NCBI GenBank assembly: GCA_020442185.1
Contig: JAGRKS010000002.1
Coordinates: 1 to 64,000, forward strand
DNA from: Hyphomicrobiaceae bacterium
GTDB lineage: Bacteria; Pseudomonadota; Alphaproteobacteria; Rhizobiales; Hyphomicrobiaceae
Reading direction: 5' to 3'
Length of the DNA: 64,000 nt
The notes beneath the pieces were generated by a model. It did not search any database and was not told the origin of the DNA. It worked only from the letters and a program-made list of their open reading frames with translations. A program made the position numbers and the translations under genes. This document shows, piece after piece, positions 11,720-53,567 of the stretch. How positions within the stretch are numbered: the stretch's first letter is position 1; each line of letters begins with the position of its first letter.

Positions 11720-12277
11720 CTACCGGAGAATTTCGAGGTCGTCTCCGCCAATGGCGCGATGGCAAGCGATACAGCCCTCATCCATGCCCTTGGCGACGCG
11801 TCCCGCGAGCTTCATGCCCATCGGGTTGGTATCGATCTCGCCGTTCGGCTTGTACTTGGCCCAGAACCAGTCCTTGTTCTCAGGATCATAACCGGCCGGC
11901 TTCTTGAACATCACGGTGTAGGCACCGATGAACTTGTTCGGCTCGGCATAGACAGACTTCACGTCCTTGGCCATGTGATTGACCTTGACGATGACCCGAC
12001 CCGAGCGCTTGCCGACCTTGATTTCGCGCTCGAGAACCTGCTGGATCGCGCCGTGCGGCTCGTTGCCCTCGAACGGCTGCACATTGATCCGCTTCTCGCC
12101 AACCAGAAGGTAGTTGCGCATCGACGACCACAGCTGCTTGGCAAAGGCAACGTCTGAACTGCCCCCGAATGCCATCGGCATCGATTTCATCTTGTCCTGC
12201 GCAACGACTGTCTGTCCGACCACCAGCACGACGACGCCTGCGAGGGCCGCACTTGCGACCGCTTTCCAATTCAACAT
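11720..12277 (-). CDS. Cytochrome P460-like secreted c-type cytochrome
   Basis: 185 residues from the ATG at 12277, preceded by GGAG; an upstream in-frame extension lacks a ribosome-binding site. A signal peptide (MLNWKAVASAALAGVVVLVV...VVAQD) directs export. The C-terminal CIACH motif is a c-type heme site. The body (KVGKRSGRVIVKVNHMAK, FIGAYTVMFKKPAGYDPE, KDWFWAKYKPNGEI) matches the cytochrome P460 family, whose best-studied members oxidise hydroxylamine or carry electrons in the periplasm; the substrate here is unknown. A SigF-type promoter (GTAACC-N16-CGAA) lies about 100 bp upstream on the same strand, which puts it in the same proposed stress regulon as the bufferin operon. Confidence 0.8.
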   Translation of the reverse strand: MLNWKAVASAALAGVVVLVVGQTVVAQDKMKSMPMAFGGSSDVAFAKQLWSSMRNYLLVGEKRINVQPFEGNEPHGAIQQVLEREIKVGKRSGRVIVKVNHMAKDVKSVYAEPNKFIGAYTVMFKKPAGYDPENKDWFWAKYKPNGEIDTNPMGMKLAGRVAKGMDEGCIACHRAIGGDDLEILR

Positions 12278-12377
12278 TGTTCTCCACTCCCATTGTCTAG
12301 AATTCGCCTCTGCCACAAAGAAACTGAAGGCTCAAAAAAGTTGCGGGTCGCCAGCCCATCGCGGCCATGTCTGGGAG

Positions 12378-12403
12378 TTCGCGTGTCATCGCCGTGTGGT
12401 TAC
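12378..12403 (-). promoter_or_regulatory. Putative ECF SigF promoter for the cytochrome P460-like gene
   Basis: On the minus strand, GTAACC (12403-12398), 16 bases, CGAA (12381-12378), followed by about 94 nt of leader to the ATG at 12277. It is identical in core and spacing to three other sites near the sigF-nrsF pair and matches the SigF promoter described for Caulobacter as I recall it. Confidence 0.7.
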
Positions 12404-12520
12404 TGTGCACCCAGCACCGTGACTTTGCGTGATCGATTGCGTGAGCAGGCCAGCACGTCGCTTGGTTCGAAATCTTCGACGGCGCCTCACGCCCTCGTGA
12501 TCGCTTGACGCTGCTTGGCA

Positions 12521-12546
12521 GTAACCATCCCGTCCGCATGAACGAA
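12521..12546 (+). promoter_or_regulatory. Putative ECF SigF promoter for the DUF547-DUF3179-DUF3047 operon
   Basis: GTAACC (12521-12526), 16 bases, CGAA (12543-12546) on the plus strand. The predicted start is near 12553, leaving a leader of about 200 nt before the chosen start codon at 12760. It excludes translation starts upstream of about 12553 for the first gene. Confidence 0.7.
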
Positions 12547-12759
12547 ACCAACCCTGACACTGGATTGAGCGGGACTCGGGACAGTGCGGGGCGAACTCCC
12601 CTCCCCTTGACCGTCGGCGTCGGATGTTCCGCTGCAGCGGGATGCGTCTTGGCAGCCTACCAGAGGGGCGTCCCGCCGACCGCTTATGAAGGCGAAAGGC
12701 TCGCGTCGCGCAAGCGGGACCGGCCAATCGGAATGCCGCAGAAACAGGAGAGTCGGACC

Positions 12760-13614
12760 TTGCAAAAACTTGAACAGATCTCGTCGCTGATGCTGACACT
12801 CGTCGTGTCAATCCTTGCCCTGTCCGCACCGGCAGCAGCGAAATCGCCTCGAGATATCGTCTCCCGACACGATCGCAACTCGACGGTTACCGTCGATCAT
12901 GCGGGCTGGGATCGACTTCTGTCGCAGTTCGTGAAGCCGGGCGCCGATGGTCTCAACCGCGTCGACTATGCCGCGTTCAAGGCGCGTGGCCACGACCAGC
13001 TCAAGACCTATCTCTTATCGATGGGGCGCATCGACCCGCGTGTGCTCAACAGGAACGAGCAATTTGCCTACCTCGCAAATCTCTACAATGCCAAGACGAT
13101 CGATATCGTGCTCGATCACTACCCCGTACGCTCGATCAAGGACATCTCGCTTGGTGGCGGGCTGTTCGCGGCTTTCACCGGAGGGCCATGGAAGGCGAAA
13201 GTGGTGTCGATCAACGGCGTTTCACTGAGCCTCGACGACATCGAGCACGAGATTCTCAGAAAGGTCTACTGGGACCCTCGCGTGCACTACGCGGTCAATT
13301 GCGCGTCAATCGGCTGCCCCAATCTTGGGTCGCGCGCATTCAGCGGCGCGAAGCTGGACGTACTGCTCGAGTCTGCGGCCCGTGACTTCGTCAACTCGCC
13401 CCGCGGCGTCCGCATCCAAGGCGACCGCGTCATGGTTTCGTCGATCTACGAATGGTTCAAGGCTGACTTCGGCGGAAACGACACGGGTGTGCTGCGCCAC
13501 CTCATGAAGTATGCGGAACCACTGCTTGCGGCCAAGCTGAAGTCCATCGGCGCCATTGCCAACCACGACTACGACTGGCGGCTCAACGACATCAAGACGG
13601 CGGGGGGACTATGA
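12760..13614 (+). CDS. DUF547 domain secreted protein
   Basis: About 284 residues. The start is unusual. A TTG at 12760 has a strong AGGAG ribosome-binding site nine bases upstream and gives a clean signal peptide (ISSLMLTLVVSILALSAPAAA). An ATG at 12733 is in frame but has no ribosome-binding site, and the longer reading to 12505 starts before the predicted promoter. The mature part is a DUF547 domain: NRNEQFAYLANLYNAKTIDI, VHYAVNCASIGCPNLG, and C-terminal SSIYEWFKADF. It is a periplasmic protein of unknown biochemical role, first gene of a three-gene operon, with its stop overlapping the next start (ATGA). Likely driven by the SigF-type promoter at 12521. Confidence 0.8.
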   Translation: MQKLEQISSLMLTLVVSILALSAPAAAKSPRDIVSRHDRNSTVTVDHAGWDRLLSQFVKPGADGLNRVDYAAFKARGHDQLKTYLLSMGRIDPRVLNRNEQFAYLANLYNAKTIDIVLDHYPVRSIKDISLGGGLFAAFTGGPWKAKVVSINGVSLSLDDIEHEILRKVYWDPRVHYAVNCASIGCPNLGSRAFSGAKLDVLLESAARDFVNSPRGVRIQGDRVMVSSIYEWFKADFGGNDTGVLRHLMKYAEPLLAAKLKSIGAIANHDYDWRLNDIKTAGGL

Positions 13615-14693
13615 CCATCGGTTCCGCAAGCACGTGGTCGCTGGCTCACACGATTGCATCTGTCGGCTTGGCGCTCATGGCCATTGGTCACATTGCCGTT
13701 CCTGCCCAGGCCCAAAGCTCCCCGGAGGTCTGGCGCCAGCAAGGCTGGGAGAAGACCGATTTTTCGAAGACCACCATATCGTGGCACGAAATCCAGTCCG
13801 GCGGGCCACCCAAAGACGGCATTCCGTCCATTGACGACCCCAAGTTCATCGACGTCAATCGCAACACGACGGTGAAAGACACGGAGCCCGTCATCGGTCT
13901 GGAGATCAATGGTGATGCGCGCGCCTATCCCCTGCGCATCCTCATGTGGCACGAGATCGTCAACGATACTGTCGGTGGCGTTCCGGTCGCCGTCACGTAT
14001 TGTCCGCTTTGCAACGCGGCCATCGTGTTCGAGCGGCAGACAGCGCACGGGCTGCTCGATTTCGGCACCACGGGCAAACTGCGCAATTCCGACCTGGTCA
14101 TGTACGATCGCCAGACCCAGAGCTGGTGGCAGCAGTACACCGGCAAGGCGATCGTGGGCGCGCTCACGAACACCAAGCTGCATCTCGTCCCCTCACGTCT
14201 GGAGGCGTTCTCACTTTTCCGGGAGCGCAACCCGCACGGTCGGTTGCTGATACCCAACGATTCAGCCTCCCGGGCCTATGGGCGCAATCCTTATGAGGGT
14301 TACGACACCAGCGCCATACCATTCCTGTACCGCGGGGAATTTCGCGCCGGCATCGACCCGATGAAGCGCGTCGTGGTCGTGCGCGAGGGCGATAGGCCAC
14401 TTGCCGTGCTCATGGGGTTGCTCCGCAAAACGGGGGCGATCAGCAAGGGCGATGTCATCATCAGGTGGCGCAGTGGACAGAACTCGGCGCTCGACCATGC
14501 ATCGATTGCCAATGGCCGCGACGTTGGCAACGTCGTCGTTCAGCGCAGGTCAGCCGATGGTTCACTCATCGACCTGCCGTATGACGTCACATTCGCATTC
14601 GTATTCCACGCCTTCCATCCCGAGGGCGAAATCATCCAGTCCTGCGCCTCGAATGACGGCGACACGACATGCAGCCAAGCGCTGTTGGATTGA
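13611..14693 (+). CDS. DUF3179 domain secreted protein
   Basis: 360 residues with an N-terminal signal peptide (about residues 1-34, ending VPAQAQ). The DUF3179 signature VTYCPLCNAAIVFER occupies about residues 129-143, with the conserved CPLC pair; the flanking RILMWHEIVNDTVGGVPV is also typical. The family is a periplasmic or extracellular protein of unknown activity. The CPLC motif suggests metal binding or redox, but that is only a guess. Translation is coupled to the DUF547 gene by a 4-bp overlap. A Cys pair near the end (SCASNDGDTTC) could form a disulfide. Length is ordinary for the family. Confidence 0.8.
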   Translation: MTIGSASTWSLAHTIASVGLALMAIGHIAVPAQAQSSPEVWRQQGWEKTDFSKTTISWHEIQSGGPPKDGIPSIDDPKFIDVNRNTTVKDTEPVIGLEINGDARAYPLRILMWHEIVNDTVGGVPVAVTYCPLCNAAIVFERQTAHGLLDFGTTGKLRNSDLVMYDRQTQSWWQQYTGKAIVGALTNTKLHLVPSRLEAFSLFRERNPHGRLLIPNDSASRAYGRNPYEGYDTSAIPFLYRGEFRAGIDPMKRVVVVREGDRPLAVLMGLLRKTGAISKGDVIIRWRSGQNSALDHASIANGRDVGNVVVQRRSADGSLIDLPYDVTFAFVFHAFHPEGEIIQSCASNDGDTTCSQALLD

Positions 14694-14704
14694 ACAGGCT
14701 GGGC

Positions 14705-15355
14705 ATGTCCAAATCCGCGTTTGTCCGGTGCATGGCGGTTCTCTTGGCAGCGCTGCTGCTAACACAACCGACCATGGCCGAGAGCGTCCTTGCGGACCCC
14801 GCTACCATGCTGTCATCGGGTGTGCGCACAGACTTCGTAGGGTCGAACCGACTGAGTGCCGAGCCTGGTCCTGCCGGCATTTGCCTCAGGAGCCAGCCCA
14901 GCCGCTCCGCGACCGGCATCCACGCGGCCGTCCGCAGCGCCCGTTCCGGCCTGTCTCGCGTCACCTGGACCTGGCGGGTCGACAAGATCCACGTCACGGC
15001 CGACATCCGCGTGCGGGAACGGGAAGACTTCGCCGCCAAGATCGCCTTCGTCTTCGGAGATCCGACCTGGTGGAACCGGGATGTTCCGACGTTGGCGTAT
15101 GTATGGACGTCAACACCCGTCGCGAACGGAACGCTCATCAAATCGACAAGGTTCAATCATTTGCGCTATATCCAGCTGCGCGGCTCTGGCGATAGCGGTG
15201 CATGGCTTACCGAAACGCGGAACGTTGCAGCCGATTTCCTCAATGCGTTCGGGAGTGAGGCGCCGCCGCTGCGCTACATCGCCATCTTCAACGACAACGA
15301 TCAGACCGGGGAGCCAGCATCGGCACTCTTTGGAACTATTTCGTCGCGCGATTGA
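14705..15355 (+). CDS. DUF3047 domain secreted protein
   Basis: 216 residues from the ATG at 14705; an in-frame ATG at 14669 inside the preceding gene would give a poorer signal peptide. The signal peptide is SAFVRCMAVLLAALLLTQPT. The mature chain shows the DUF3047 pattern: TWTWRVDKI, KIAFVFGDP, TLAYVWTSTPVANGTLI, WLTETRNVAADFLNAFG, IAIFNDNDQTGEPASALFGT. This is a beta-rich envelope protein of unknown function. Third gene of the DUF547-DUF3179-DUF3047 operon. Its last 55 bp overlap, tail to tail, the YiiX-like gene on the other strand. Confidence 0.75.
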   Translation: MSKSAFVRCMAVLLAALLLTQPTMAESVLADPATMLSSGVRTDFVGSNRLSAEPGPAGICLRSQPSRSATGIHAAVRSARSGLSRVTWTWRVDKIHVTADIRVREREDFAAKIAFVFGDPTWWNRDVPTLAYVWTSTPVANGTLIKSTRFNHLRYIQLRGSGDSGAWLTETRNVAADFLNAFGSEAPPLRYIAIFNDNDQTGEPASALFGTISSRD

Positions 15356-16155
15356 GTCGCCAGTTCGCAGCTTCCGCCATCGAGGTCGTCAGCCCAGGTC
15401 AATGCGTGCGGATCGAACCCTGCCTCGATCGTCGGCTTGACGACCTGGAAGTAGGGCGACAGATCGAAATCCCGCGGCGTGAAAAGGCTGTGGTGCCTGA
15501 TGTGCAGGATTTCAGACTGGCTATATTCGCTCGACGCAAACTTCTGGTCTGGAACGCGATCGATGCGCGGCAGGATCGGATAGCGCAGACTCTGGAAAGC
15601 CTGCGCGATCAAGGTCGAGCAGATCACCCGCGAGGGTTCTCCCGAGCCTAACGCGATCATTCGCCTGCGCCAGCGCACAGGAACGGGCGGCGTCGGGAAG
15701 AGATAGCGGGCCAGATCGACGATGTGGCGCGTGTCGTAGGTATTGCCAATCCGGGCGATGGAAAACAGCGCGACATCGCGCAACTCATCGCTGGTCAGAC
15801 CGACCGGCCGACAGATCCGCGTATTGAAGGTTGCATATCGCGAGAGCGGTGTCGCAACGACCCCCTCACCGAGGTTGGCCTCGACAAGCATGCATTTCTC
15901 TTTGCCTTCTGCTGGCGGGGCCGCCAGATCACCCACATACAAGGCCGCATGAGACCATGTCGATTGTGTAAGGTACTTGATCGCGGCGCCAACCTTCTGA
16001 TTGCCCTCGACGAGCAGAACGTCTCCCACCTTGAGAACCCGCCGCAAGGTATCTGGATCTGATGGCGTGAAAGGCTCGTAGCCACTGGACTGCGCCTCCA
16101 GACGAGATGCGATGAAGCGTCCTATTCTGTCCAGAACTCTATCGATCGCTGTCAT
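15301..16155 (-). CDS. YiiX/YebB-like permuted NlpC/P60 cysteine hydrolase
   Basis: 284 residues with no signal peptide, so probably cytoplasmic. The family pattern of a circularly permuted papain fold is visible: LKVGDVLLVEG, the His motif TWSHAALYVGD, LVEANLGEGV, and later the Cys motif RVICSTLIAQAFQ. Such enzymes act as peptidases, amidases or lipid hydrolases; the substrate cannot be predicted. It starts 22 bp after the DoxX gene in the same direction, so it may be the last gene of the bufferin operon and could act on the bufferin precursor or on lipids. That is inference. It converges with the DUF3047 gene. Confidence 0.75.
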   Translation of the reverse strand: MTAIDRVLDRIGRFIASRLEAQSSGYEPFTPSDPDTLRRVLKVGDVLLVEGNQKVGAAIKYLTQSTWSHAALYVGDLAAPPAEGKEKCMLVEANLGEGVVATPLSRYATFNTRICRPVGLTSDELRDVALFSIARIGNTYDTRHIVDLARYLFPTPPVPVRWRRRMIALGSGEPSRVICSTLIAQAFQSLRYPILPRIDRVPDQKFASSEYSQSEILHIRHHSLFTPRDFDLSPYFQVVKPTIEAGFDPHALTWADDLDGGSCELATQSRDEIVPKSADAGSPV

Positions 16156-16177
16156 CGCACCGAGCTTCGCATGCCAT

Positions 16178-16648
16178 TCACAGTTTCCACATGGCCGGTG
16201 TGCTCGTGCTCTCCATGCCGACGCTGCGTGACCTTATCACGTGGTCAATCGACAAGGCGCCAGGACCGAACTTTACGATCATCAAGAGTGCGATCGCCCA
16301 TAGCCCGTGGGTCATATAGGCGTCGGGATAGACGAATATCTGAATGACCGCTGTCATGCCGAACAATCCCAGCGCGGCGATTCGTGCGCCGATACCAAGC
16401 CAGAGTAGCCAGGGCAGGGTCAACTCGGCTGCCGTTGCCATATACGCCGCCATGACCGGCGGAATGAGCGGAACCTTGTACTCTTCCGCAAACAGGAAGA
16501 ACGTTGCGTCCTTGAGCGCAAAGCCATCGATCTTGGTCAGGCCGGACTTGTAGAACACGAGACCGATGACGACCCGAGCCAGGAGCGCAATGATCGCATA
16601 TGGAAGCGATTCAAGTATCCTTATGAACTTGCCGACCACCGATGCCAT
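16178..16648 (-). CDS. bufD: DoxX-family membrane protein of the bufferin operon
   Basis: 156 residues from the ATG at 16648, which has GAGGAA upstream; an in-frame codon at 16693 is less likely. Four hydrophobic helices carry the DoxX pattern (ARVVIGLVFYKSGLTKIDGF, AYMATAAELTLPWLLWLGIG, GLFGMTAVIQIFVYPDAY, GLWAIALLMIVKFGPGALSI). DoxX proteins accompany DUF2282/DUF692/DUF2063 gene sets, where they are thought to help redox handling or export of the metallophore at the inner membrane. The start lies 41 bp after the stop of the DUF2063 gene. The symbol follows the published bufferin nomenclature as I remember it. Confidence 0.75.
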   Translation of the reverse strand: MASVVGKFIRILESLPYAIIALLARVVIGLVFYKSGLTKIDGFALKDATFFLFAEEYKVPLIPPVMAAYMATAAELTLPWLLWLGIGARIAALGLFGMTAVIQIFVYPDAYMTHGLWAIALLMIVKFGPGALSIDHVIRSRSVGMESTSTPAMWKL

Positions 16649-16689
16649 CTTCAATTCCTCAGCCTCGAATTTCAGTAAACGCGCGAGCG

Positions 16690-17460
16690 TCACGAAGCTC
16701 CATGCCCGTAGACCGCGCCAAGATCCAACAACGCAGCGAGCGCCTTCTGGAAATCGAACGCGCTCGCCTCTCGTGATGCTTCCATTGCAGCTTCACCCAA
16801 TGGCACTCCAGCCATGAGCGCCTCGAAGAACGTGTAGAAGCCGGGATCCAGCAGAAGCGCTTTCACCTCGAGACCGACCCGAGAGACGAGCACCGCCTCA
16901 CCTGCGGCCTCCGCCGGTATGAATTTGACATCTTCATCGAAAGTATTCGTGCGCCAGATGGAAAAGACCGGAAACCTGGAACGCTGGATCTGGGCGGAGG
17001 GATGAAACAGGAAACAAAGTCGAGGAACTTCGTCAGGCTCTACATGCGACAGGTCTGCCCGCGTAAGCGGGCGAGCGTTTGCCGCGTGATAGGCGCGTTG
17101 CTGCATCCATTCGAGGCGCGCCACATCGGGCAGGTACGGGAGGTCGGTCACGGGTCGGAACTCGGAAAGGAACTCTGGAAGCTCCGCACCATACCGGGTC
17201 AACACGGGCGAAGCCGGCGGCCGCTCAAGAATGAAGGCGCGCGCCGTAGCGCGAAAGAAGTCCCCGCCCAGAAGTCTCGCAACAACCGGGAAGAAGGCTG
17301 CCACAACATCGGTGAGGCTCATCACGACATTGTTGCGATAAACCGCAAATCGCTTGTTCGCGGCGCCGCCATGGTTGCTGCCGACGCCAGCCGGCACGGG
17401 ACGTGACGCATGAAAGATGGCCGATGCGAATTCACGTTGCACCTGGTCAAGCGACGGCAT
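16690..17460 (-). CDS. bufC: DUF2063 partner protein of the DUF692 oxidase
   Basis: 256 residues from the ATG at 17460 with GGGAGG upstream. The N-terminal DUF2063 domain is recognisable (LDQVQREFASAIFH, RFAVYRNNVVMSLTDVVAAF, VARLLGGDFFRATARAFI, LPDVARLEWMQQRAYHA). Although often labelled DNA-binding, this family mostly serves as the substrate-recognition partner of MNIO/DUF692 enzymes in peptide metallophore pathways. The C-terminal part (ALLLDPGFYTFFEALMAGVP, FDFQKALAALLDLGAV) is the usual helical extension. It overlaps the DUF692 gene by 14 bp, so the two are probably made in equal amounts. Confidence 0.85.
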   Translation of the reverse strand: MPSLDQVQREFASAIFHASRPVPAGVGSNHGGAANKRFAVYRNNVVMSLTDVVAAFFPVVARLLGGDFFRATARAFILERPPASPVLTRYGAELPEFLSEFRPVTDLPYLPDVARLEWMQQRAYHAANARPLTRADLSHVEPDEVPRLCFLFHPSAQIQRSRFPVFSIWRTNTFDEDVKFIPAEAAGEAVLVSRVGLEVKALLLDPGFYTFFEALMAGVPLGEAAMEASREASAFDFQKALAALLDLGAVYGHGAS

Positions 17461-18325
17461 GGCGTGCTCCCTCCCTGTGCAAAATTGCTTCTGCGCGGAT
17501 CGCCTCCATATGAAGTGACTCCCACTCCGGGACATCATTGTCCCATTCGATCAGCACCGGGCACCGGCCGGTACGGCGAACGACATGACGGAAGAGCTCC
17601 CACACAGGATCTACGACCTGCGTCCCGTGCGAATCGATAAGGAGCGTGCGGCCCGTGTCATCGGCGTCCACCGAGTGACCGCCAAGATGAATTTCGCCCA
17701 CACGTTCGATCGGGAATTCATCGATGTAGGCGACCGGATCGAAGCCGTGGTTTGTAGCAGAAACGAAGACATTGTTGACGTCGAGCAGAAGGCCGCAGCC
17801 GGTTCGTTCCGATATTTGCTTGATGAAATCCACTTCGCTCATTTCGGATGCGTCGAACACCACATACGTCGAGGGATTTTCGAGGAGTATCTGCCGCTTC
17901 AACGTCGATTGGATCTGATCGACGTGGCTGCATACACGTTGCAGCGTCTGACAATTATAGGGGACTGGCAGAAGATCATTGAAGAACGTGCCCTCATGCG
18001 TTGACCAGGCCAGATGCTCGGATACGAGGCCCGGCTGATAGCAATCGCAGACAGCCTTCAAACGCGCGAGGTGAAGCTGATCGAGTTCTTCATCAGCGCC
18101 GATCGACATGCCAACGCCATGCACGGACAACGGATACATCGAGCGAATGGCCGACAGATAGTGATGAGGCGGCCCACCGGCTTCCATGTAGTTCTCGGCG
18201 TGGACCTCGAACCAGCCGATGGCGGGTCGCGTCTTGAGAATATGCTGATAGTGCTCAGGCTTGAGCCCGACCCCGGCGCCAGCCGGGATCGGGTCTGCCA
18301 TCGCGCTCCGGGGGACAGCGCTCAT
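17447..18325 (-). CDS. bufB: DUF692 / MNIO multinuclear iron oxidase of the bufferin system
   Basis: About 292 residues. The start is taken at 18325, nine bases after the precursor gene; an internal ATG at 18301 with GGAG is an alternative. The TIM-barrel DUF692 signature is complete: GVGLKPEHYQHIL, IGWFEVHAENYM, LSVHGVGMSIG, LVSEHLAWSTH, ILLENPSTYV, CGLLLDVNNVFVSA, GEIHLGGHS, ILIEWDNDVPEW. The His, Asp, Asn and Glu residues in these motifs bind the iron ions. MNIO enzymes modify cysteines of a precursor peptide to sulfur heterocycles, here probably those of the DUF2282 protein. Second gene of the SigF-type operon. Confidence 0.9.
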   Translation of the reverse strand: MSAVPRSAMADPIPAGAGVGLKPEHYQHILKTRPAIGWFEVHAENYMEAGGPPHHYLSAIRSMYPLSVHGVGMSIGADEELDQLHLARLKAVCDCYQPGLVSEHLAWSTHEGTFFNDLLPVPYNCQTLQRVCSHVDQIQSTLKRQILLENPSTYVVFDASEMSEVDFIKQISERTGCGLLLDVNNVFVSATNHGFDPVAYIDEFPIERVGEIHLGGHSVDADDTGRTLLIDSHGTQVVDPVWELFRHVVRRTGRCPVLIEWDNDVPEWESLHMEAIRAEAILHREGARHAVA

Positions 18326-18333
18326 GGCACGGC

Positions 18334-18657
18334 TCAGGCTTCGCTGCAGTCGTACTTGCCGCCACGATCGCCGATGCACTGCAGGCTACCGTTGCCATGT
18401 GGCGTCGAGACCTGCTCGCAGGTGCCCTTCTTGACCAGGCTCCAGGCGTTGCCCTGGTAGTCGACCGTCGAGGTGCCTGCACACGTCGTGCCCTTGCCGG
18501 CCTTGCAGTCATTCTTCCCGGCCAGCGCTACGCCGTAGCACTTCTCCATATTCTTCATGTCCATCTGCGCATTGGCGTCCGTCGCTGCCATGCCGAGGGC
18601 GGCGGCAAAAGCACCTGCGAGGGCCAGCGACGAGATCTGAGTGGTCTTACGATCCAT
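18334..18657 (-). CDS. bufA: Bufferin precursor (DUF2282, RiPP metallophore)
   Basis: 107 residues from the ATG at 18657 (AGGGA upstream). A Sec signal peptide ([20 protein letters not shown]) precedes a core with the DUF2282 pattern [38 protein letters not shown]. The four core cysteines are the expected modification sites; two more (LQC, YDC) sit near the C-terminus. Bufferins are exported, cysteine-modified peptides that chelate copper and raise metal tolerance. The gene is followed at once by the oxidase, partner and DoxX genes. A SigF-type promoter lies 54 bp upstream, as expected for metal-stress control. Called from the family pattern; metal specificity is not readable from sequence. 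Confidence 0.9.
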
Positions 18658-18710
18658 GATTAAATCCCTTTTGTTGACTTCGGAGGCGCCAAGCGCCCCA
18701 CGCAATCAAG

Positions 18711-18736
18711 TTCGAAGGGACGAGTGCAAAGGTTAC
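18711..18736 (-). promoter_or_regulatory. Putative ECF SigF promoter of the bufferin operon
   Basis: Minus strand: GTAACC (18736-18731), 16 bases, CGAA (18714-18711). The predicted transcript start is near 18704, giving a leader of about 46 nt to the bufA ATG at 18657. Exact match to three sister sites in this window. It lies in the 333-bp gap between bufA and the divergent porin gene; the rest of that gap shows nothing recognisable. Confidence 0.8.
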
Positions 18737-18990
18737 GGCCGTCGTGCTGCGACAGCGCGCGACAGCCGCTCTGCCGATCACGAATGCTTGATTATGTGCG
18801 GGAGCAAAAAACTTTGGAGCGGGGTCCGCCAGCAAACCGAGCAGGCGTCGTTTCACGCGTTGCCGTCCCGCCACACGCGCTAAAGGCTGAATAAAGCGAC
18901 TGCGGCTAACGTTCCAATACATCGTGGCCCGCAGCCTGCTGGGCCGTCGGAATCAAAAATTTGTCTGGCGTCCCGAAACAGGGGGAATTT

Positions 18991-20283
18991 ATGAGACGAC
19001 ATTTTCTCACCGTGGCACTGTTGACCTCGGTCGCAGCGTTCACAACACCCGCAGTGGCCGCCGACCTGGGAGGTGACTGCTGCGCCGATCTGGAAGAACG
19101 GATTAGCGAACTCGAGGCGACCACCGTCCGCAAGGGCAACCGCAAGGTGTCTGTCGCCATCTCTGGCTGGGTCGCCGAACAGGTGATGTTCTGGGACGAT
19201 GGTACCGAGAGCAACGTCTATGTCACTGGGCTCGGCACAACCCTCTCGAGCCACTTCAAGTTGACCGGCTCCGCGCAGATCGCACCGGGATGGCAGGCTG
19301 GCTACGTTGTACACATCGAGGCCAACGCCGCTGATCCTCTGGCCGTCGATCAGGACCGCGACGATGCACTCCTGACGGGCACGACGCACAACCTGCAGAC
19401 CTACTGGTACTTGAGTTCCGAAAAGTACGGCAAAGTTTCCGTTGGGCTTGTTTCGCAGGCTTCCGACAACACGGCAATCCTCGTCGACGGATCCGGCTCT
19501 CTGGTGCCGGCCAACTGGGTGATCTTCGACAACGTCAGCTTCAAGCTGCGCGACGGTGCCGGAAACTTCATCAACGTCGGTGGTGCTGATCTGCGTTGGG
19601 CTGACGTGGCCATGTGCCACCACATCGATGCAGGCATCGGCGCCGACTGCAACGGCGTGCCGTTGAACGCGGTGCGTTACGACTCGCCGACCTTCGGTGG
19701 GTTCTCGGTCTCGGCTTCATGGGGCGAGGACGACTTCTGGGATGTCGCGGTCCGCTATGCCGGCGAGTTCAACGGCGTCAAGGTGGCGATTGCCGGTGCC
19801 TACTCGAACTCGACGGAAGGCCTTGGCGATACCGGTCTCGGCGGCGGACACGAGTCCGACTATTACCAGATCGGTGCCTACGTCCAGCACACACCGACTG
19901 GCCTCTTCCTCTACGGCGCATATGGCCGTGAGGAAAATGAGCACAGGACCGCCAACCTCGGCCTCGCCATTCCCGACAGCGACTTCTATTACCTGAAGGC
20001 CGGCCTTCGCCGCAAATTCCACCCGCTCGGCCACACGGTGCTGTTCGGCGAATATGGCCAGCATGACGACATGATGAGCCAGGCATTGATCGAGGACGGC
20101 GTGACCGGCACAGAGATGCAGCGTTGGGGCCTCGGCATCGTGCAGGAGATTGACGCTGCCGCAATGTCCCTGTTCCTCGTCTACCGCAATATCGAGGGTG
20201 ACATCGACAACCTTGGAGGCGCAGTCAATGTTGACCTCGACGAACTTCAGATCGTCAAGTTCGGCGCTCTGATCAACTTCTAA
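18991..20283 (+). CDS. Alphaproteobacterial outer-membrane porin
   Basis: 430 residues. The ATG at 18991 has a strong AGGGGGA upstream and gives the signal peptide RRHFLTVALLTSVAAFTTPA. A short N-terminal coiled-coil-like segment (CCADLEERISELEATTV) precedes a beta-barrel typical of Rhizobiales porins: KVSVAISGWVAEQVMFWDDG, alternating strands throughout (GGFSVSASWGEDDFWDVAVR), and C-terminal KFGALINF ending in Phe, the signal for the outer-membrane assembly machinery. It should form a general diffusion trimer. It stands alone, with a terminator downstream, and is divergent from the bufferin operon. Cys pairs (CC at the mature start; CHH and DC in a loop) are unusual for porins. Confidence 0.85.
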   Translation: MRRHFLTVALLTSVAAFTTPAVAADLGGDCCADLEERISELEATTVRKGNRKVSVAISGWVAEQVMFWDDGTESNVYVTGLGTTLSSHFKLTGSAQIAPGWQAGYVVHIEANAADPLAVDQDRDDALLTGTTHNLQTYWYLSSEKYGKVSVGLVSQASDNTAILVDGSGSLVPANWVIFDNVSFKLRDGAGNFINVGGADLRWADVAMCHHIDAGIGADCNGVPLNAVRYDSPTFGGFSVSASWGEDDFWDVAVRYAGEFNGVKVAIAGAYSNSTEGLGDTGLGGGHESDYYQIGAYVQHTPTGLFLYGAYGREENEHRTANLGLAIPDSDFYYLKAGLRRKFHPLGHTVLFGEYGQHDDMMSQALIEDGVTGTEMQRWGLGIVQEIDAAAMSLFLVYRNIEGDIDNLGGAVNVDLDELQIVKFGALINF

Positions 20284-20338
20284 GTACCGCGTATTCACTA
20301 CACTACCGCTTACTACCCAATCTGCACGACCCCCCTAG

Positions 20339-20379
20339 GAGGCTGCTTCTGACTCCCGTCTGAGCAGCCTCATTTTTTT
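20339..20379 (+). terminator. Rho-independent terminator after the porin gene
   Basis: A perfect 9-bp stem, GAGGCTGCT (20339-20347) with AGCAGCCTC (20363-20371), a 15-nt loop, then a run of seven T at 20373-20379. It ends the porin transcript. Confidence 0.9.
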
Positions 20380-20429
20380 GCCTGGTGGAAGGCGCACGGA
20401 GAGACTTGCTGAACTGGGCCGCGCGGCGC

Positions 20430-21101
20430 TCAGGCCTTGCGTACCTCGAAAGCGTATCCCTGACCCCGCACGGTGCGGATCAGACAATCCGGATGCGCGA
20501 GCTTCTTGCGCAAGCGGTGCACGTAGACCTCGATGATATCGATGGCCGTTTCATCGTCGATCGAGAATATCCTCGATGCGATGAAGTCCTTGCTGACAAT
20601 TTTCCCGCAGTGACTGACAAGCACGCTGAGGACGCTGCGCTCCCTTGCCGTCAGCTCGACGCTTTCTCCGGCGAGCGAGACATCCTGGGTGATCAGATCG
20701 ATCCTGACGGGACCGACAGAGAGCGCGGAATTGAGTGGCTGCGCCTCCCCTCTCAGCGAAAGCCTGATCCTGGTCTCGAGCTCGATCGGTCTTATGGGCT
20801 TCAGGATGAAATCGTCCGCGGAGAGGTTGATGAGTTCCGACAACGCTCCGGATGAAATGTCTCGCGCCATCACAACGAGCCTCGGCGCCGGCCAGCGATG
20901 TCTCATTCGCCCCAGCGCCAAACGGCTCTCGGAATCTGCATCGTCAAGATCCAGCAGAAGAATATCATAGTGGCTCAGGGCAAGTAGTTCCTCGGCCTCG
21001 CCAACCGTTGCAATCTGGTCGACAAGGCATTTCCTGGCCTTGAGCATCTGCGCAAGAACCGCATTTTGCGAGCCGCTACGCCCTATGAGCAGAACCTTCA
21101 T
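20430..21101 (-). CDS. OmpR/PhoB-family response regulator
   Basis: 223 residues. The receiver domain (1-118) has HYDILLLDLDDADSESR with the likely phospho-acceptor Asp, and the conserved Lys in DDFILKPIRP. The C-terminal winged-helix domain is complete (ELTARERSVLSVLVSHCGKI, IDIIEVYVHRLRKKL, IRTVRGQGYAFEV). The usual acidic pair after beta-1 is weak (LLIGRSGSQ instead of a DD motif), so phosphorylation may be altered or absent. No histidine kinase adjoins it. It faces the porin gene tail to tail and could regulate the porin or the envelope response, which is only a suggestion. Confidence 0.85.
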   Translation of the reverse strand: MKVLLIGRSGSQNAVLAQMLKARKCLVDQIATVGEAEELLALSHYDILLLDLDDADSESRLALGRMRHRWPAPRLVVMARDISSGALSELINLSADDFILKPIRPIELETRIRLSLRGEAQPLNSALSVGPVRIDLITQDVSLAGESVELTARERSVLSVLVSHCGKIVSKDFIASRIFSIDDETAIDIIEVYVHRLRKKLAHPDCLIRTVRGQGYAFEVRKA

Positions 21102-21138
21102 GGCGTCCCGTTTCTGCTATTCTTGTTGTTGGTAACGG

Positions 21139-21221
21139 TGGGCGGGGCGGAAGGAATCGAACCCTCTGCGGAAAGTCGAGGCTGGAGGCACTCATTTCCG
21201 GTCCACCACGGACGCACCCCG
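21139..21221 (-). other. tRNA-like element without a recognisable anticodon arm
   Basis: On the minus strand the element has a 7-bp acceptor-like stem (CGGGGTG at 21221-21215 with CGCCCCG at 21149-21143), a 4-bp D-like stem (TCCG/CGGA), a proper T-arm (GAGGG-TTCGATT-CCTTC), and a 3' end reading C-CCA. The middle 29 bases do not form a normal anticodon stem-loop; instead CGGAAA can pair with TTTCCG to make one long hairpin. It is therefore either a decayed tRNA gene or a structured RNA of tRNA-like shape. It is not assigned an amino acid. Confidence 0.35.
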
Positions 21222-21348
21222 AATCAGAAGTGGATGAGGCAATCGGTAGAAGGGGTGAGACGGGCCGGCCAATGCGTGGGCATGGCCGGCCCGCGTGTCC
21301 ATTCAGGATCGCTGGCCACTCTTTCAGCCCCGAAGGACCGGAGAGCCG

Positions 21349-21492
21349 CTACTTTCCGCCGGTGATGCCGTTCGGATGAACGATGCTGCCGGTTTTCACC
21401 AGATCGGAAAGAACACGATCGCCTCCCTTTGCGGACGCGATGCTGGGTGCGGCGAGGACAAGAAGCGCGAAACTCAACATGAAAATCTTCAT
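21349..21492 (-). CDS. 47-residue secreted peptide under a SigF-type promoter
   Basis: A short gene with GAGGAG upstream of the ATG at 21492. It encodes a signal peptide (MKIFMLSFALLVLAAPSIAS-A) and a mature peptide of about 26 residues (KGGDRVLSDLVKTGSIVHPN, then GITGGK). The mature part has no cysteine and one histidine. I recognise no family. A perfect GTAACC-N16-CGAA promoter lies about 60 bp upstream on the same strand, so it is likely induced with the bufferin operon. It is divergent from the sigF-nrsF operon. The role is unknown; a small exported stress peptide is all that can be said. Confidence 0.7.
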   Translation of the reverse strand: MKIFMLSFALLVLAAPSIASAKGGDRVLSDLVKTGSIVHPNGITGGK

Positions 21493-21554
21493 TACAAAGC
21501 TCCTCTACGATAACTAATGGACGCGGGTAATTCCGAGCCATTCTGCTTAAGAGC

Positions 21555-21580
21555 TTCGCCAGGATCGGAACCTCGGTTAC
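21555..21580 (-). promoter_or_regulatory. Putative ECF SigF promoter of the small secreted peptide
   Basis: Minus strand: GTAACC (21580-21575), 16 bases, CGAA (21558-21555), with a start near 21548 and a leader of about 55 nt to the ATG at 21492. It sits in the gap upstream of sigF but points away from it; I found no equivalent box directed at sigF. Confidence 0.75.
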
Positions 21581-21722
21581 CTTTCTCGATCCACATGGGC
21601 GTCACGTTGTCTTGAGAAGGTCGTGAAAGATTGTTGTGGGATAGGATGACCAGACCGATCACTGCTCATTCCCAGAGGCGCCGTTGGCACTTCGCAACCA
21701 CCCAAGCGCCGGACCCTGCCCG

Positions 21723-22295
21723 ATGACGCAACACGAGCCGCAATCCAGCCGAGCAGCTCGCGACGAACTCTGGCGCGACTGGATGCGTGCGGCTCAAGAT
21801 GGCGACAACTCCGCCTACACCCGGCTGCTCGCCGATATTCTGCCGGTGGTGCGCGCAATGGTCCGTCGCAAGTGGCGGAACGCGAACGACGTCGAGGACA
21901 TCGTCCAGGATGTCCTGCTCTCAATCCATGTTGTGCGGCATACCTACGATCCTGGGCGTCCGTTCGGGCCCTGGCTGTCGACGATCACGGCGCGCCGCAT
22001 TGCTGACGCCGCCCGGCGCACCTCGGCGCGTTCGGCCAACGAAACCACGGTCGAGATCATGCCTGAAACCTCTTTGCAGGATGAAACGAAGAGTGATCAG
22101 GACGTTCTTGACGATCACGGTGAGATCCAACGTGCGCTGGCGGGCTTATCGGCAACTCAGCGGCAGGCGATCAAGCTCATGAAAATTCAAGGCCTGTCTC
22201 TGGAGGAGGCGTCTGCTGTGACAGGCAAGAGTGTTTCAGCCCTCAAGGTGACTGTCCATCGGGCTATGAAAGTGATGCGGCGGATATTGGAATGA
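21723..22295 (+). CDS. sigF: ECF RNA polymerase sigma factor, SigF type
   Basis: 190 residues from the ATG at 21723; an in-frame upstream start at 21684 is possible, and neither has a good ribosome-binding site. Region 2 is clear (AYTRLLADILPVVRAMVRRK, NDVEDIVQDVLLSIHVVRHT, FGPWLSTITARRIADAARR), and so is region 4 (ALAGLSATQRQAIKLMKIQG, LSLEEASAVTGKSVSALKVT, VHRAMKVMRRIL). Its 4-bp overlap with a DUF1109 gene marks it as the sigF-nrsF pair, which in Caulobacter responds to chromate, cadmium and copper and controls DUF2282/DUF692 genes. Four GTAACC-N16-CGAA sites in this window are the proposed targets. Confidence 0.9.
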   Translation: MTQHEPQSSRAARDELWRDWMRAAQDGDNSAYTRLLADILPVVRAMVRRKWRNANDVEDIVQDVLLSIHVVRHTYDPGRPFGPWLSTITARRIADAARRTSARSANETTVEIMPETSLQDETKSDQDVLDDHGEIQRALAGLSATQRQAIKLMKIQGLSLEEASAVTGKSVSALKVTVHRAMKVMRRILE

Positions 22296-22969
22296 ACGGA
22301 TCGACAGAGAGAGACACGGATGCGCTCGTGGGCGCCCTCGCCGGGTGCGCTGCCCCCGTCCGGAGGCTGCGTTCTCCTCACCTGCGCATGGCGATCTGGT
22401 TCATGATCTCCGTAATGTTCGCTGCTCTGGTGGTCGCTGCCATGGGCTTGAGGCCCGATATCGGCCTAAGGCTCCAGGAGCCACAGTTCGTGGTCGAAGT
22501 GGTTGCCGCGTTGATGACGAGCATGCTTGCAGCCGGTGCAGCCTTCTGTGCCGGTTGCCCTGGACGCCCGCTCTGGGAACGATTTGCGCCATTGCCCGCT
22601 CTTGGCGTCTGGCTTGCCTCTCTGGGTACCGGATGCTGGGCAGCGTGGATCTCGACGGGGCCAGAAGGTCTGCGGATCACACCGGACCTGATGTGCTTCC
22701 CCTATATCGTCCTTGTCGGAAGTGTACCGGCTGTCTTGATCCTGGCAATGATAAGACGAGGCGCTCCGATCGCCCCGATAACAGCGACCATGCTGGCCGC
22801 CCTCGCCGCGGCGTCACTAGGTGCCGCAGCGCTACGTCTCTTTCATCAGCAGGACGCCAGCCTGATGGTGCTGACATGGCACGTCGGCTCCGTCGCGATT
22901 CTGACAGGGATTGGAGCGTTGATCGGGCGCTCATTCCTGCGCTGGCCGCAAAATGCCAAGACCTACTGA
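22292..22969 (+). CDS. nrsF: DUF1109 anti-sigma factor (NrsF type)
   Basis: 225 residues with about six transmembrane helices (MAIWFMISVMFAALVVAAMG; VVEVVAALMTSMLAAGAAFC; FAPLPALGVWLASLGTGCWA; CFPYIVLVGSVPAVLILAMI; TATMLAALAAASLGAAALRL; SVAILTGIGALIGRSFLR) after a short cytoplasmic N-terminus that would hold the sigma factor. DUF1109 proteins are membrane anti-sigma factors in which conserved cysteines mediate metal sensing; here Cys residues lie at AAFCAGCPG, GTGCW and DLMCFPY. Translationally coupled to sigF (4-bp overlap). The DUF302 gene that follows may belong to the same transcript. Confidence 0.85.
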   Translation: MNGSTERDTDALVGALAGCAAPVRRLRSPHLRMAIWFMISVMFAALVVAAMGLRPDIGLRLQEPQFVVEVVAALMTSMLAAGAAFCAGCPGRPLWERFAPLPALGVWLASLGTGCWAAWISTGPEGLRITPDLMCFPYIVLVGSVPAVLILAMIRRGAPIAPITATMLAALAAASLGAAALRLFHQQDASLMVLTWHVGSVAILTGIGALIGRSFLRWPQNAKTY

Positions 22970-22990: not shown

Positions 22991-23437
22991 ATGCGCTTCG
23001 TTTACGCTGCTCTGTTTCTTCTCGTTGCCTCGCTGACAACTCGTGCTGAAAGCCTCATCAAGATCGAGAGCCAACATGGCGTGAAGCAAACCGTCGACAG
23101 GCTTGCTGCAGCCATCGAGAAGCGCGGCATCAAGATCGCGGCACGTATCGACCATGCCGCGGCCACAAAGGCTGCCGACCTCGAGCTTGCTCCGACTGGG
23201 TTGGTGATATTCGGCAATCCCAAGCTCGGCACGCCGTTGATGCAGGAAGGCCCGACGATGGGGATCGACTTGCCGATGAAGATTCTGACCTGGCAGGACA
23301 ACTCCGGAAAAGTATGGATGACGTTTCCCGATCCAGAGGACCTCGAGTTCCGGCACGGCGTGAAGACGCACGACGAGATCTTCGCCAAGATGCGCAAGGC
23401 CCTGGACGGACTGACGCAGGCCGCCGGCGGCCAATAG
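22991..23437 (+). CDS. Secreted DUF302 domain protein
   Basis: 148 residues. The ATG at 22991 has TGAGG upstream and starts a signal peptide (RFVYAALFLLVASLTTRAES). The rest is a DUF302 domain: GVKQTVDRLAAAIEKRGIKI, ARIDHAAATKAADLELAPTG, LVIFGNPKLGTPLMQEGPTM, GIDLPMKILTWQDNSGKVWM. DUF302 proteins are small periplasmic or cytoplasmic proteins of unknown activity, often found near metal or redox stress genes. It follows nrsF by 21 bp and probably belongs to the sigF-nrsF operon. Confidence 0.8.
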   Translation: MRFVYAALFLLVASLTTRAESLIKIESQHGVKQTVDRLAAAIEKRGIKIAARIDHAAATKAADLELAPTGLVIFGNPKLGTPLMQEGPTMGIDLPMKILTWQDNSGKVWMTFPDPEDLEFRHGVKTHDEIFAKMRKALDGLTQAAGGQ

Positions 23438-23521: not shown

Positions 23522-24094
23522 TTACGCAGCAGCCGACCACGCGCGGCTGGCGAAAACCTCGTCCACAGGCGTATGGAAGACGTGATTGGCGTAGTTGCTC
23601 AGCGTCTTGACCGAGATGGCGAGGATGACGCCGAGTATGTTCTTCTCCGAGTAGCCTGCGGCGCGGAACTCAGCCACATCGGCGTCCGTCGGCCTGCCGC
23701 GTGATGTCACCATCGTCGTGGTGAATTTGGCCAAAGCTGCGTACTTTGCGTCCGCGATCTGGTGCCCGTCGCGTATGGCGTCTGTCACGTCCTTCGGTAC
23801 CTTCGACATCGCGTCCGCTATGAAGCTGTGGGCCGCCATGCAGTAGTCGCAACCGTTGGCGCGGCTGATTGCGAGGAAGATCACCTCCTGCTCGACCGGA
23901 GTGAAACCGGTCTCGGCGCGGAATGCGTCATAGGCCGCTGCATAAGCCTCGAAGAGGGCCGGCTCATTGGCCATCGCGCCGTACATGTTTGGCACGAAGC
24001 CGAGCTTCTTCTTGGCCGCTTCGAGCAGTGTCTTGGCCTTGCCAACTGCGGTGTCGATCGTGAGCAGGGGCAAACCGGTGATGCGATATGTCAT
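23522..24094 (-). CDS. Carboxymuconolactone decarboxylase (AhpD-like) family protein
   Basis: 190 residues. The CMD/AhpD core carries the redox motif in NGCDYCMAAHSFIA (CxxC plus His, around residues 81-91), preceded by EQEVIFLAISRA, and the C-terminal repeat EKNILGVILAISVKTLSNY followed by ANHVFHTPVDE. These are features of uncharacterised peroxidase-related alkylhydroperoxidase-like proteins. It lies directly downstream of the TetR-family gene on the same strand, with a palindrome in the gap that resembles one upstream of the regulator, so it is the likely regulated target. Physiological substrate unknown; peroxide or electrophile defence is plausible. Confidence 0.85.
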   Translation of the reverse strand: MTYRITGLPLLTIDTAVGKAKTLLEAAKKKLGFVPNMYGAMANEPALFEAYAAAYDAFRAETGFTPVEQEVIFLAISRANGCDYCMAAHSFIADAMSKVPKDVTDAIRDGHQIADAKYAALAKFTTTMVTSRGRPTDADVAEFRAAGYSEKNILGVILAISVKTLSNYANHVFHTPVDEVFASRAWSAAA

Positions 24095-24208
24095 GTGCTG
24101 TCTCCGTTGTTGATACGCTTGCTAAGTGTTCACCAGACTGACCGTTTCGGGCGTGCATGGGCGGTGGTGATCCTTCTTTCTCCCACCCCAAACGCCTTCT
24201 GCTTTTTT

Positions 24209-24222
24209 GGAACGACCGTTCC
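24209..24222. promoter_or_regulatory. Inverted repeat, likely TetR operator upstream of the CMD gene
   Basis: GGAACG-AC-CGTTCC is a perfect 6-bp inverted repeat in the gap between the TetR gene and the CMD-family gene. It resembles the palindrome at 24858-24869 upstream of the regulator (GGAAyGAyCrTTCm). Confidence 0.6.
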
Positions 24223-24240
24223 ATTCCGGGTAAAAAAAAA

Positions 24241-24819
24241 TCAGTCGAGGCGCCGCATTGCCTCGTCGACGATGGCCTTGAGCAATGTCCCTTCGGGCCG
24301 GCTGCGCGTCAGCACCAGCAGTCCGAGCAGTGACGCGAGCAAACCACGCGCAGTCTCTGCCGGCCTGACATGTTGCGGAATATCGCCGGCCGACTTGCCC
24401 TTCCTGATCATGCGGACGAAAAAGTCCTCCACGTTCGCTTGCGCCGTCGCGACCAGCTTGCGGATTTCGCGGTCGTGGGCAGCGAGTTCGAGCGCCGTGT
24501 TGGTGATGAAGCAGCCCTTGTTGCCGCCCGCCTCCGATACGTCGCGTGTGAACGCGAGAAAGACCTGGCGAATGGCATCGCGGGGCTCGTAACGCTTCTC
24601 AAACCCAGCCAGCATATGTCTGCGCCTCTCGTCATAGCTGGCGAGTGCGGCAAGGAACAGCGCACGCTTGTCGCCAAACGTTGCGTAAAGACTGCCACGA
24701 TTGATGCCCATGCAGTCGACGAGATCCTGCATCGAGGTCGCCTCGAACCCGCGCGACCAGAAGGCTTCCAGCGCTTGTCCCAGCGCCTCCTGCTTGTTGA
24801 ACCGCTTCTCCAAGGGCAT
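24241..24819 (-). CDS. TetR/AcrR-family transcriptional repressor
   Basis: 192 residues. The ATG at 24819 with AGGAGAAG upstream is preferred to the in-frame ATG at 24867, which falls inside the operator palindrome. The N-terminal helix-turn-helix is typical of TetR (FNKQEALGQALEAFWSRGFE, ATSMQDLVDCMGINRGSLYA, TFGDKRALFLAAL). The ligand domain resembles the C-terminal domain of YxaF/NemR-like members (GGNKGCFITNTALELAAHD). It has Cys residues in CMGINRG and GCFITN that could sense electrophiles. It most likely represses itself and the downstream CMD-family gene. Confidence 0.9.
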   Translation of the reverse strand: MPLEKRFNKQEALGQALEAFWSRGFEATSMQDLVDCMGINRGSLYATFGDKRALFLAALASYDERRRHMLAGFEKRYEPRDAIRQVFLAFTRDVSEAGGNKGCFITNTALELAAHDREIRKLVATAQANVEDFFVRMIRKGKSAGDIPQHVRPAETARGLLASLLGLLVLTRSRPEGTLLKAIVDEAMRRLD

Positions 24820-24857
24820 CCGACCACTTCTCCTGCGGAAATCAAATAGCCTTTCTG

Positions 24858-24869
24858 GAATGATCATTC
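24858..24869. promoter_or_regulatory. Inverted repeat, likely TetR autoregulatory operator
   Basis: GAATGATCATTC is a perfect palindrome 39 bp upstream of the TetR start codon. With its flank (TGGAATGATCATTCA) it resembles the site at 24209-24222. Confidence 0.55.

Positions 24870-45389: not shown

Positions 45390-53567
<8,178 letters not shown>

Follow-up and report, generated by a model that had tools for sequence, protein, structure and literature searches.

In Caulobacter, SigF recognises promoters of the form GTAACC-N16-CGAA, its targets are bufferin operons and a YedY gene, and NrsF is its negative regulator (Kohler et al. 2012, PMC3511200). Loss of sigF makes the cells sensitive to copper, and it is through SigF that Cu acts on the bufferin operons (PMC8224329); genes under SigF control react to Cu, Cr and Cd, whereas oxidants have no such effect (PMC3511200, PMC8224329). 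The window (the whole 64-kb stretch of DNA that was analysed) shares with the Caulobacter crescentus system the same promoter, a sigF-nrsF pair, bufferin genes (DUF2282-DUF692-DUF2063-DoxX) and a small regulon (PMC3511200, PMC8224329). The published Caulobacter members beyond bufferin are MsrPQ-like (PMC3511200, PMC8224329), whereas the window has as extra targets a DUF547-DUF3179-DUF3047 set, a P460 protein, a C92 protein and a 47-aa peptide.

Other described systems match the locus in part. The gigPABT-rpoQ-rsqA region of Cupriavidus metallidurans, induced there by Cu and Au, likewise has a bufferin operon facing away from the genes for an ECF sigma factor and its anti-sigma factor, although extra targets are not described and the promoter is not mapped (PMC10304878). 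Brucella BcrS-AbcS and Azospira SigF-NrsF resemble the window in joining an ECF16 sigma factor to a six-helix DUF1109/NrsF partner (PMC8315932, PMC4623255), and Brucella also shares the promoter type (PMC8315932); their targets, however, are a Met-rich peptide and MsrPQ, and their signal is hypochlorite (PMC8315932, PMC4623255). A survey of bufferin clusters reports the DUF2282-MNIO-DUF2063-DoxX core seen here, with sigma and NrsF genes known at Buf1 clusters, but additional conserved genes in extremely low proportions only, and leaves DUF547, DUF3179 and P460 unmentioned (PMC12452194).

Our analysis indicates that the window very probably carries a compact, local SigF (ECF16) regulon driven from four promoters (probability about 0.85). 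The preliminary description had tied bufferin production, the DUF547-DUF3179-DUF3047 operon, the P460-like protein and the small peptide into one such regulon; this grouping gained support from spacer-specific enrichment and recurring targets, but its bufferin link was already known, as was the promoter motif, so that only the other targets are new, not having been found in the literature searched, which leaves out most subscription journals.

Promoter sites and genes of the locus

SigF is encoded at 21723-22295 (+) as an ECF sigma factor (Pfam Sigma70_r2 and r4_2), followed with a 4-nt overlap by NrsF at 22292-22969 (+; Pfam NrsF 102.5 bits, cut-off 26.8), the sole NrsF in the genome. The pair has the hallmarks of ECF16/SigF: only sigma-2 and sigma-4 domains, an adjacent six-helix NrsF/DUF1109 protein, and GTAACC-N16-CGAA before the targets. 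A DUF302 gene (22991-23437) begins 22 nt after nrsF and probably shares its operon; in G005 (L357) a DUF302 gene comes after DUF3179, downstream of an exact SigF site, and in L250 one is a neighbour of NrsF.

A motif scan of the window confirmed four exact sites around this pair, with the identical cores, 16-base spacers, positions and strands given in the preliminary description, all within 9.2 kb, non-coding and upstream of a real gene, at distances of about 53 to 213 nt between the -10 element and the likely start codon. The site at 12378-12403 (-) lies 100 nt before the ATG (12277) of a P460-family exported c-type haem protein with a CxxCH motif (11720-12277, -). Its Pfam Cytochrome_P460 score of 26.0 bits is just under the cut-off of 27; all 25 relatives match that family (best E 8e-12) with CxxCH invariant, and the assignment as a cytochrome P460 rests on this combination of Pfam and CxxCH. 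A fold search with the P460 model returned several P460 entries in the top 50, none with a significant E-value, and sequence search found no solved structures for P460, DUF547 or DUF3179.

The site at 12521-12546 (+) precedes three mutually overlapping genes, for an exported DUF547 protein (12760-13614, +; Pfam E 3.7e-22), an exported DUF3179 protein with a CPLC motif (13611-14693, +; E 3.2e-85) and a DUF3047 protein (14669-15355, +; E 1.7e-27). The likely DUF547 start is a TTG at 12760, preceded by CAGGAGAG; an ORF from 12505 was rejected as unlikely because this longer frame overlaps the promoter. The resulting leader of 213 nt is long, and we count it against the regulon.

The site at 18711-18736 (-) lies about 53 nt before the ATG (18657) of the bufferin operon, all on the minus strand: a DUF2282 bufferin precursor with a signal peptide (18334-18657; Pfam E 4e-24), the peptide-modifying MNIO enzyme (DUF692; 17447-18325; E 4.1e-108), its DUF2063 partner (16690-17463; E 3.4e-25) and DoxX (16178-16651; E 4.9e-15), together the full gene set of a Bufferin-1 cluster. 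The last gene, 23 nt after doxX, encodes a C92 permuted papain-like (YaeF/YiiX-like) protein (15301-16155; E 6.6e-9). The site at 21555-21580 (-), divergent from sigF, precedes by 62 nt the ATG (21492, preceded by GAGGAG) of a 47-aa secreted peptide, MKIFMLSFALLVLAAPSIASAKGGDRVLSDLVKTGSIVHPNGITGGK (21349-21492, -), which matched no family model and has homologues in G025, G081, G063 and G022.

Shuffled windows gave 0.16 matches with spacers 15-17 pooled (0 of 100 shuffles with at least five), and about 0.05 per window for spacer 16 alone. A fifth match in the window (52337-52363, spacer 17) falls within an ORF of 608 aa and appears to be a chance occurrence. The genome-wide scan proposed in the preliminary description, covering 218 contigs (3.997 Mb), returned seven exact N16 sites: the four of the window cluster, two within coding sequence (C105, C149) and one (C73) without a clear gene downstream, rather than the equal numbers in coding regions that would speak against promoters. 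One-mismatch sites showed no excess over the reversed control (146 vs 159) and the other exact N16 sites look like background, so that the regulon is taken as local and distal members cannot be called. In contrast to Caulobacter, there is no SigF site before sigF in the window; the best upstream match has three mismatches, and conserved autoregulation was rejected on that basis. Within sigF itself lies GAAACC-N16-CGAA (22065-22090), at a position kept in many SigF genes; constraint on the coding sequence may account for this, or the element may be an internal promoter serving nrsF.

SigF sites across related loci

To place the four sites in context, 100 stretches were retrieved from related genomes and the wider class, nearly all around NrsF or SigF genes, and the 94 carrying SigF or NrsF were analysed (1.55 Mb, window excluded). 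Exact GTAACC-CGAA pairs numbered 53 at spacer 16 and 12 at spacer 15, with 0-3 at each other spacer from 10 to 23 and 1-6 in the reversed control. This spacer-specific pattern, in loci other than our own, is independent evidence for a promoter of this sigma type. As a simple gene caller misassigned many of the GC-rich loci, the genes behind the sites were identified by translating candidate frames and by homology. At least two other genomes repeat each target family of the window behind an exact or one-mismatch site (DUF547 or DUF3179, P460, the 47-aa peptide and, often, bufferin), and it is this recurrence, together with the spacer-specific enrichment, that supports the regulon.

In at least 10 other loci, bufferin follows an exact site whose spacer is 15 or 16. 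Exact sites precede DUF547 in G063 (L122) and DUF3179 in G005 (L357) and the distant G615 (L253). A separate site serves C92 in three genomes, exact in G005 (L116) and G083 (L128) and with one mismatch in G081. In G171 (L113) a one-mismatch site precedes a P460 gene that comes after SigF-NrsF, and in G615 an exact site beside SigF precedes the gene of a Cys-rich protein with a fused P460 domain. For the 47-aa peptide homologue the site is exact in G081 and one mismatch away in G025, a genome that also has the window's DUF547-3179-3047 / C92-DoxX-DUF2063-MNIO-bufferin arrangement near sigF, with sites.

The exact sites of relatives also precede genes for CusF (96 bits), MsrA and thioredoxin-like proteins, for MXKDX Met-rich peptides and exported Cys-rich CNPCA-repeat proteins, and for cytochrome b561, DUF6969 and a radical SAM protein. 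Those of the first two groups relate to copper or redox chemistry, and the set as a whole mostly points to periplasmic metal and thiol functions. The CNPCA(A)K-repeat proteins (L128:14255-14494, L128:14599-15198, L351:5232-6322, L253:10520-11587, L247:11314-11601) have exact SigF sites, save for one whose site has a single mismatch. Their repeat region is matched by no Pfam or NCBIfam model, and in some a cytochrome c or P460 domain is attached. They may represent a novel type of metal-binding protein in the periplasm. A second family of tiny secreted peptides (47 aa, ADEKxCKPGQxxDExxGKCV) was seen behind exact SigF sites at L122:2607-2747 and L127:2608-2748.

The NrsF variant and the inducing signal

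In described NrsF proteins, interaction is assigned to C129/C131 and sensing to C179/C181 (PMC3420878, PMC3511200, PMC8315932). The first of these cysteines, Cys135 in the window NrsF, is invariant in all 125 aligned sequences; the second is missing from the window protein, which has His185 in its place and, again differing from Caulobacter NrsF, carries Cys115. Brucella, unlike the window, keeps both C129 and C179 (PMC8315932). The classical pair is present in 69 of the 125 sequences, and 46, the window's included, combine His for C181 with an extra Cys in the third helix (Cys115 here); C115, C135, H185 and D188 are invariant among 31 of these 46. Against the NCBIfam NrsF equivalog the window protein scores 21.8 bits (cut-off 300). 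Its model (mean pLDDT 88) has six long helices, including 100-122, 133-155 and 162-184, and with the usual cytoplasmic N-terminus the four residues are predicted at or near periplasmic helix ends; a fold search with the model gave no significant match. The split between His-type and classical NrsF forms one fully supported branch of the tree, so that the residue swap happened once, long ago, and each type has been well conserved since. Covariation of the swapped residues (p 1e-29) was accordingly discounted as repeated evidence for a metal site, being a single event on the tree. This subfamily is a sensor variant unreported in the literature searched, within the same limits on journal coverage as above.

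The two NrsF types also differ in their surroundings. Exact sites number 49 in 45 loci of the window's subfamily vs 10 in 40 classical loci, and DUF547, DUF3179, DUF3047, C92 and P460 occur near NrsF only at loci of that subfamily; MNIO linkage shows no difference between subfamilies (p 0.34). A screen of 60 homologues found a near-exact spacer-16 site before DUF547 or C92 in only four genomes (G000, G063, G083, G081), whose NrsF matches of about 98-109 bits are well below the classical type.

In the mechanism we propose, NrsF, a six-helix membrane protein, would hold SigF inactive, and SigF, once active, would start transcription at the four GTAACC-N16-CGAA promoters. The products would act mainly in the periplasm, comprising a putatively copper-trapping bufferin with its maturation enzymes and the C92 protein, the DUF547-DUF3179-DUF3047 set, the P460-family haem protein and the small secreted peptide. 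We infer SigF binding, the inducer and the metal site of NrsF; the DUF proteins, the P460 protein and the peptide probably serve redox or thiol repair and metal handling.

Since the published sensing cysteine is missing, Caulobacter's inducers are not to be assumed here, and copper as the signal is not certain because hypochlorite or peroxide is what triggers related sigma/anti-sigma pairs (PMC8315932, PMC3420878). The regulon might thus be real yet answer chiefly to reactive chlorine or peroxide, with bufferin as a by-product. The hypochlorite response of the Brucella and Azospira ECF16 pairs and the H2O2 response of Bradyrhizobium EcfF (PMC8315932, PMC4623255, PMC3420878) would fit such a signal, as would the Met-rich peptides and MsrA behind sites in relatives. 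We nevertheless regard it as rather unlikely: the window NrsF lacks the cysteine (C179/C181) through which that class signals, bufferin and CusF are copper proteins, and the Caulobacter SigF genes respond to metals and not to oxidants (PMC3511200, PMC8224329). A metal-responsive reading can be stated more fully, if tentatively and at less than even odds: the NrsF subfamily may be a distinct sensor in which Cys115-Cys135-His185 (Asp188), at the periplasmic face of the membrane, directly bind Cu(I) or another thiophilic metal in place of redox C181, and which would control an enlarged SigF regulon whose members (bufferin, P460-type haem proteins, DUF547/DUF3179/C92 enzymes, exported Cys-rich CNPCA-repeat proteins) together make up a single programme of periplasmic metal-thiol defence. 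For much of the NrsF family, sensing via the published cysteine pair is impossible; the residues named offer an alternative site, and metal perception by ECF16 anti-sigma factors becomes testable by a few point substitutions.

Probable attachment of the target genes to SigF

A narrower explanation is that SigF drives the known bufferin operon only, the other three sites belonging to another ECF sigma factor or being relics. Several other ECF sigma factors are encoded in the genome (six matches), and G053 keeps the window's gene arrangement with degraded sites and no SigF-like protein found (best match 33%). The same genome also speaks the other way, as the sigF-nrsF segment is missing from it and, with the pair apparently gone, a base has been lost from most of its sites; moreover, these gene families follow this core and spacer only alongside a SigF/NrsF pair of the window's type, which makes the narrower explanation improbable. 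Chance clustering of a 10-base pattern, for which one could cite the background look of the three exact sites elsewhere in the genome, has next to no probability in view of the non-coding position of all four sites before genes, a Poisson p of about 1e-10 for four sites in 9.2 kb (with those three as background), and the spacer-specific conservation in the 94 other loci, a control that already refutes it.

We therefore retain the four-promoter SigF regulon, in which promoter and conservation place DUF547, DUF3179, DUF3047, C92 and the P460-type protein in a defined stress response and provide a first handle on their roles. The link is lineage-specific, as DUF547 and P460 were found without SigF and without a site in many relatives; the loci of P460 relatives retrieved by protein (L072-L091) had no exact site and no close SigF. 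In the Rhodobacterales loci among them (L080-L086), P460 and C92 genes adjoin, with a YeeE/YedE-like transporter between them where read (L082, L085), and some also carry DUF3179 or CMD genes; a P460-C92 module thus exists independently of SigF. Beside the cluster in the window, carboxymuconolactone-decarboxylase-like (CMD) and TetR genes (23522-24867) lie with no SigF site of their own there; both recur beside the cluster in G053, and CMD does so in G025.
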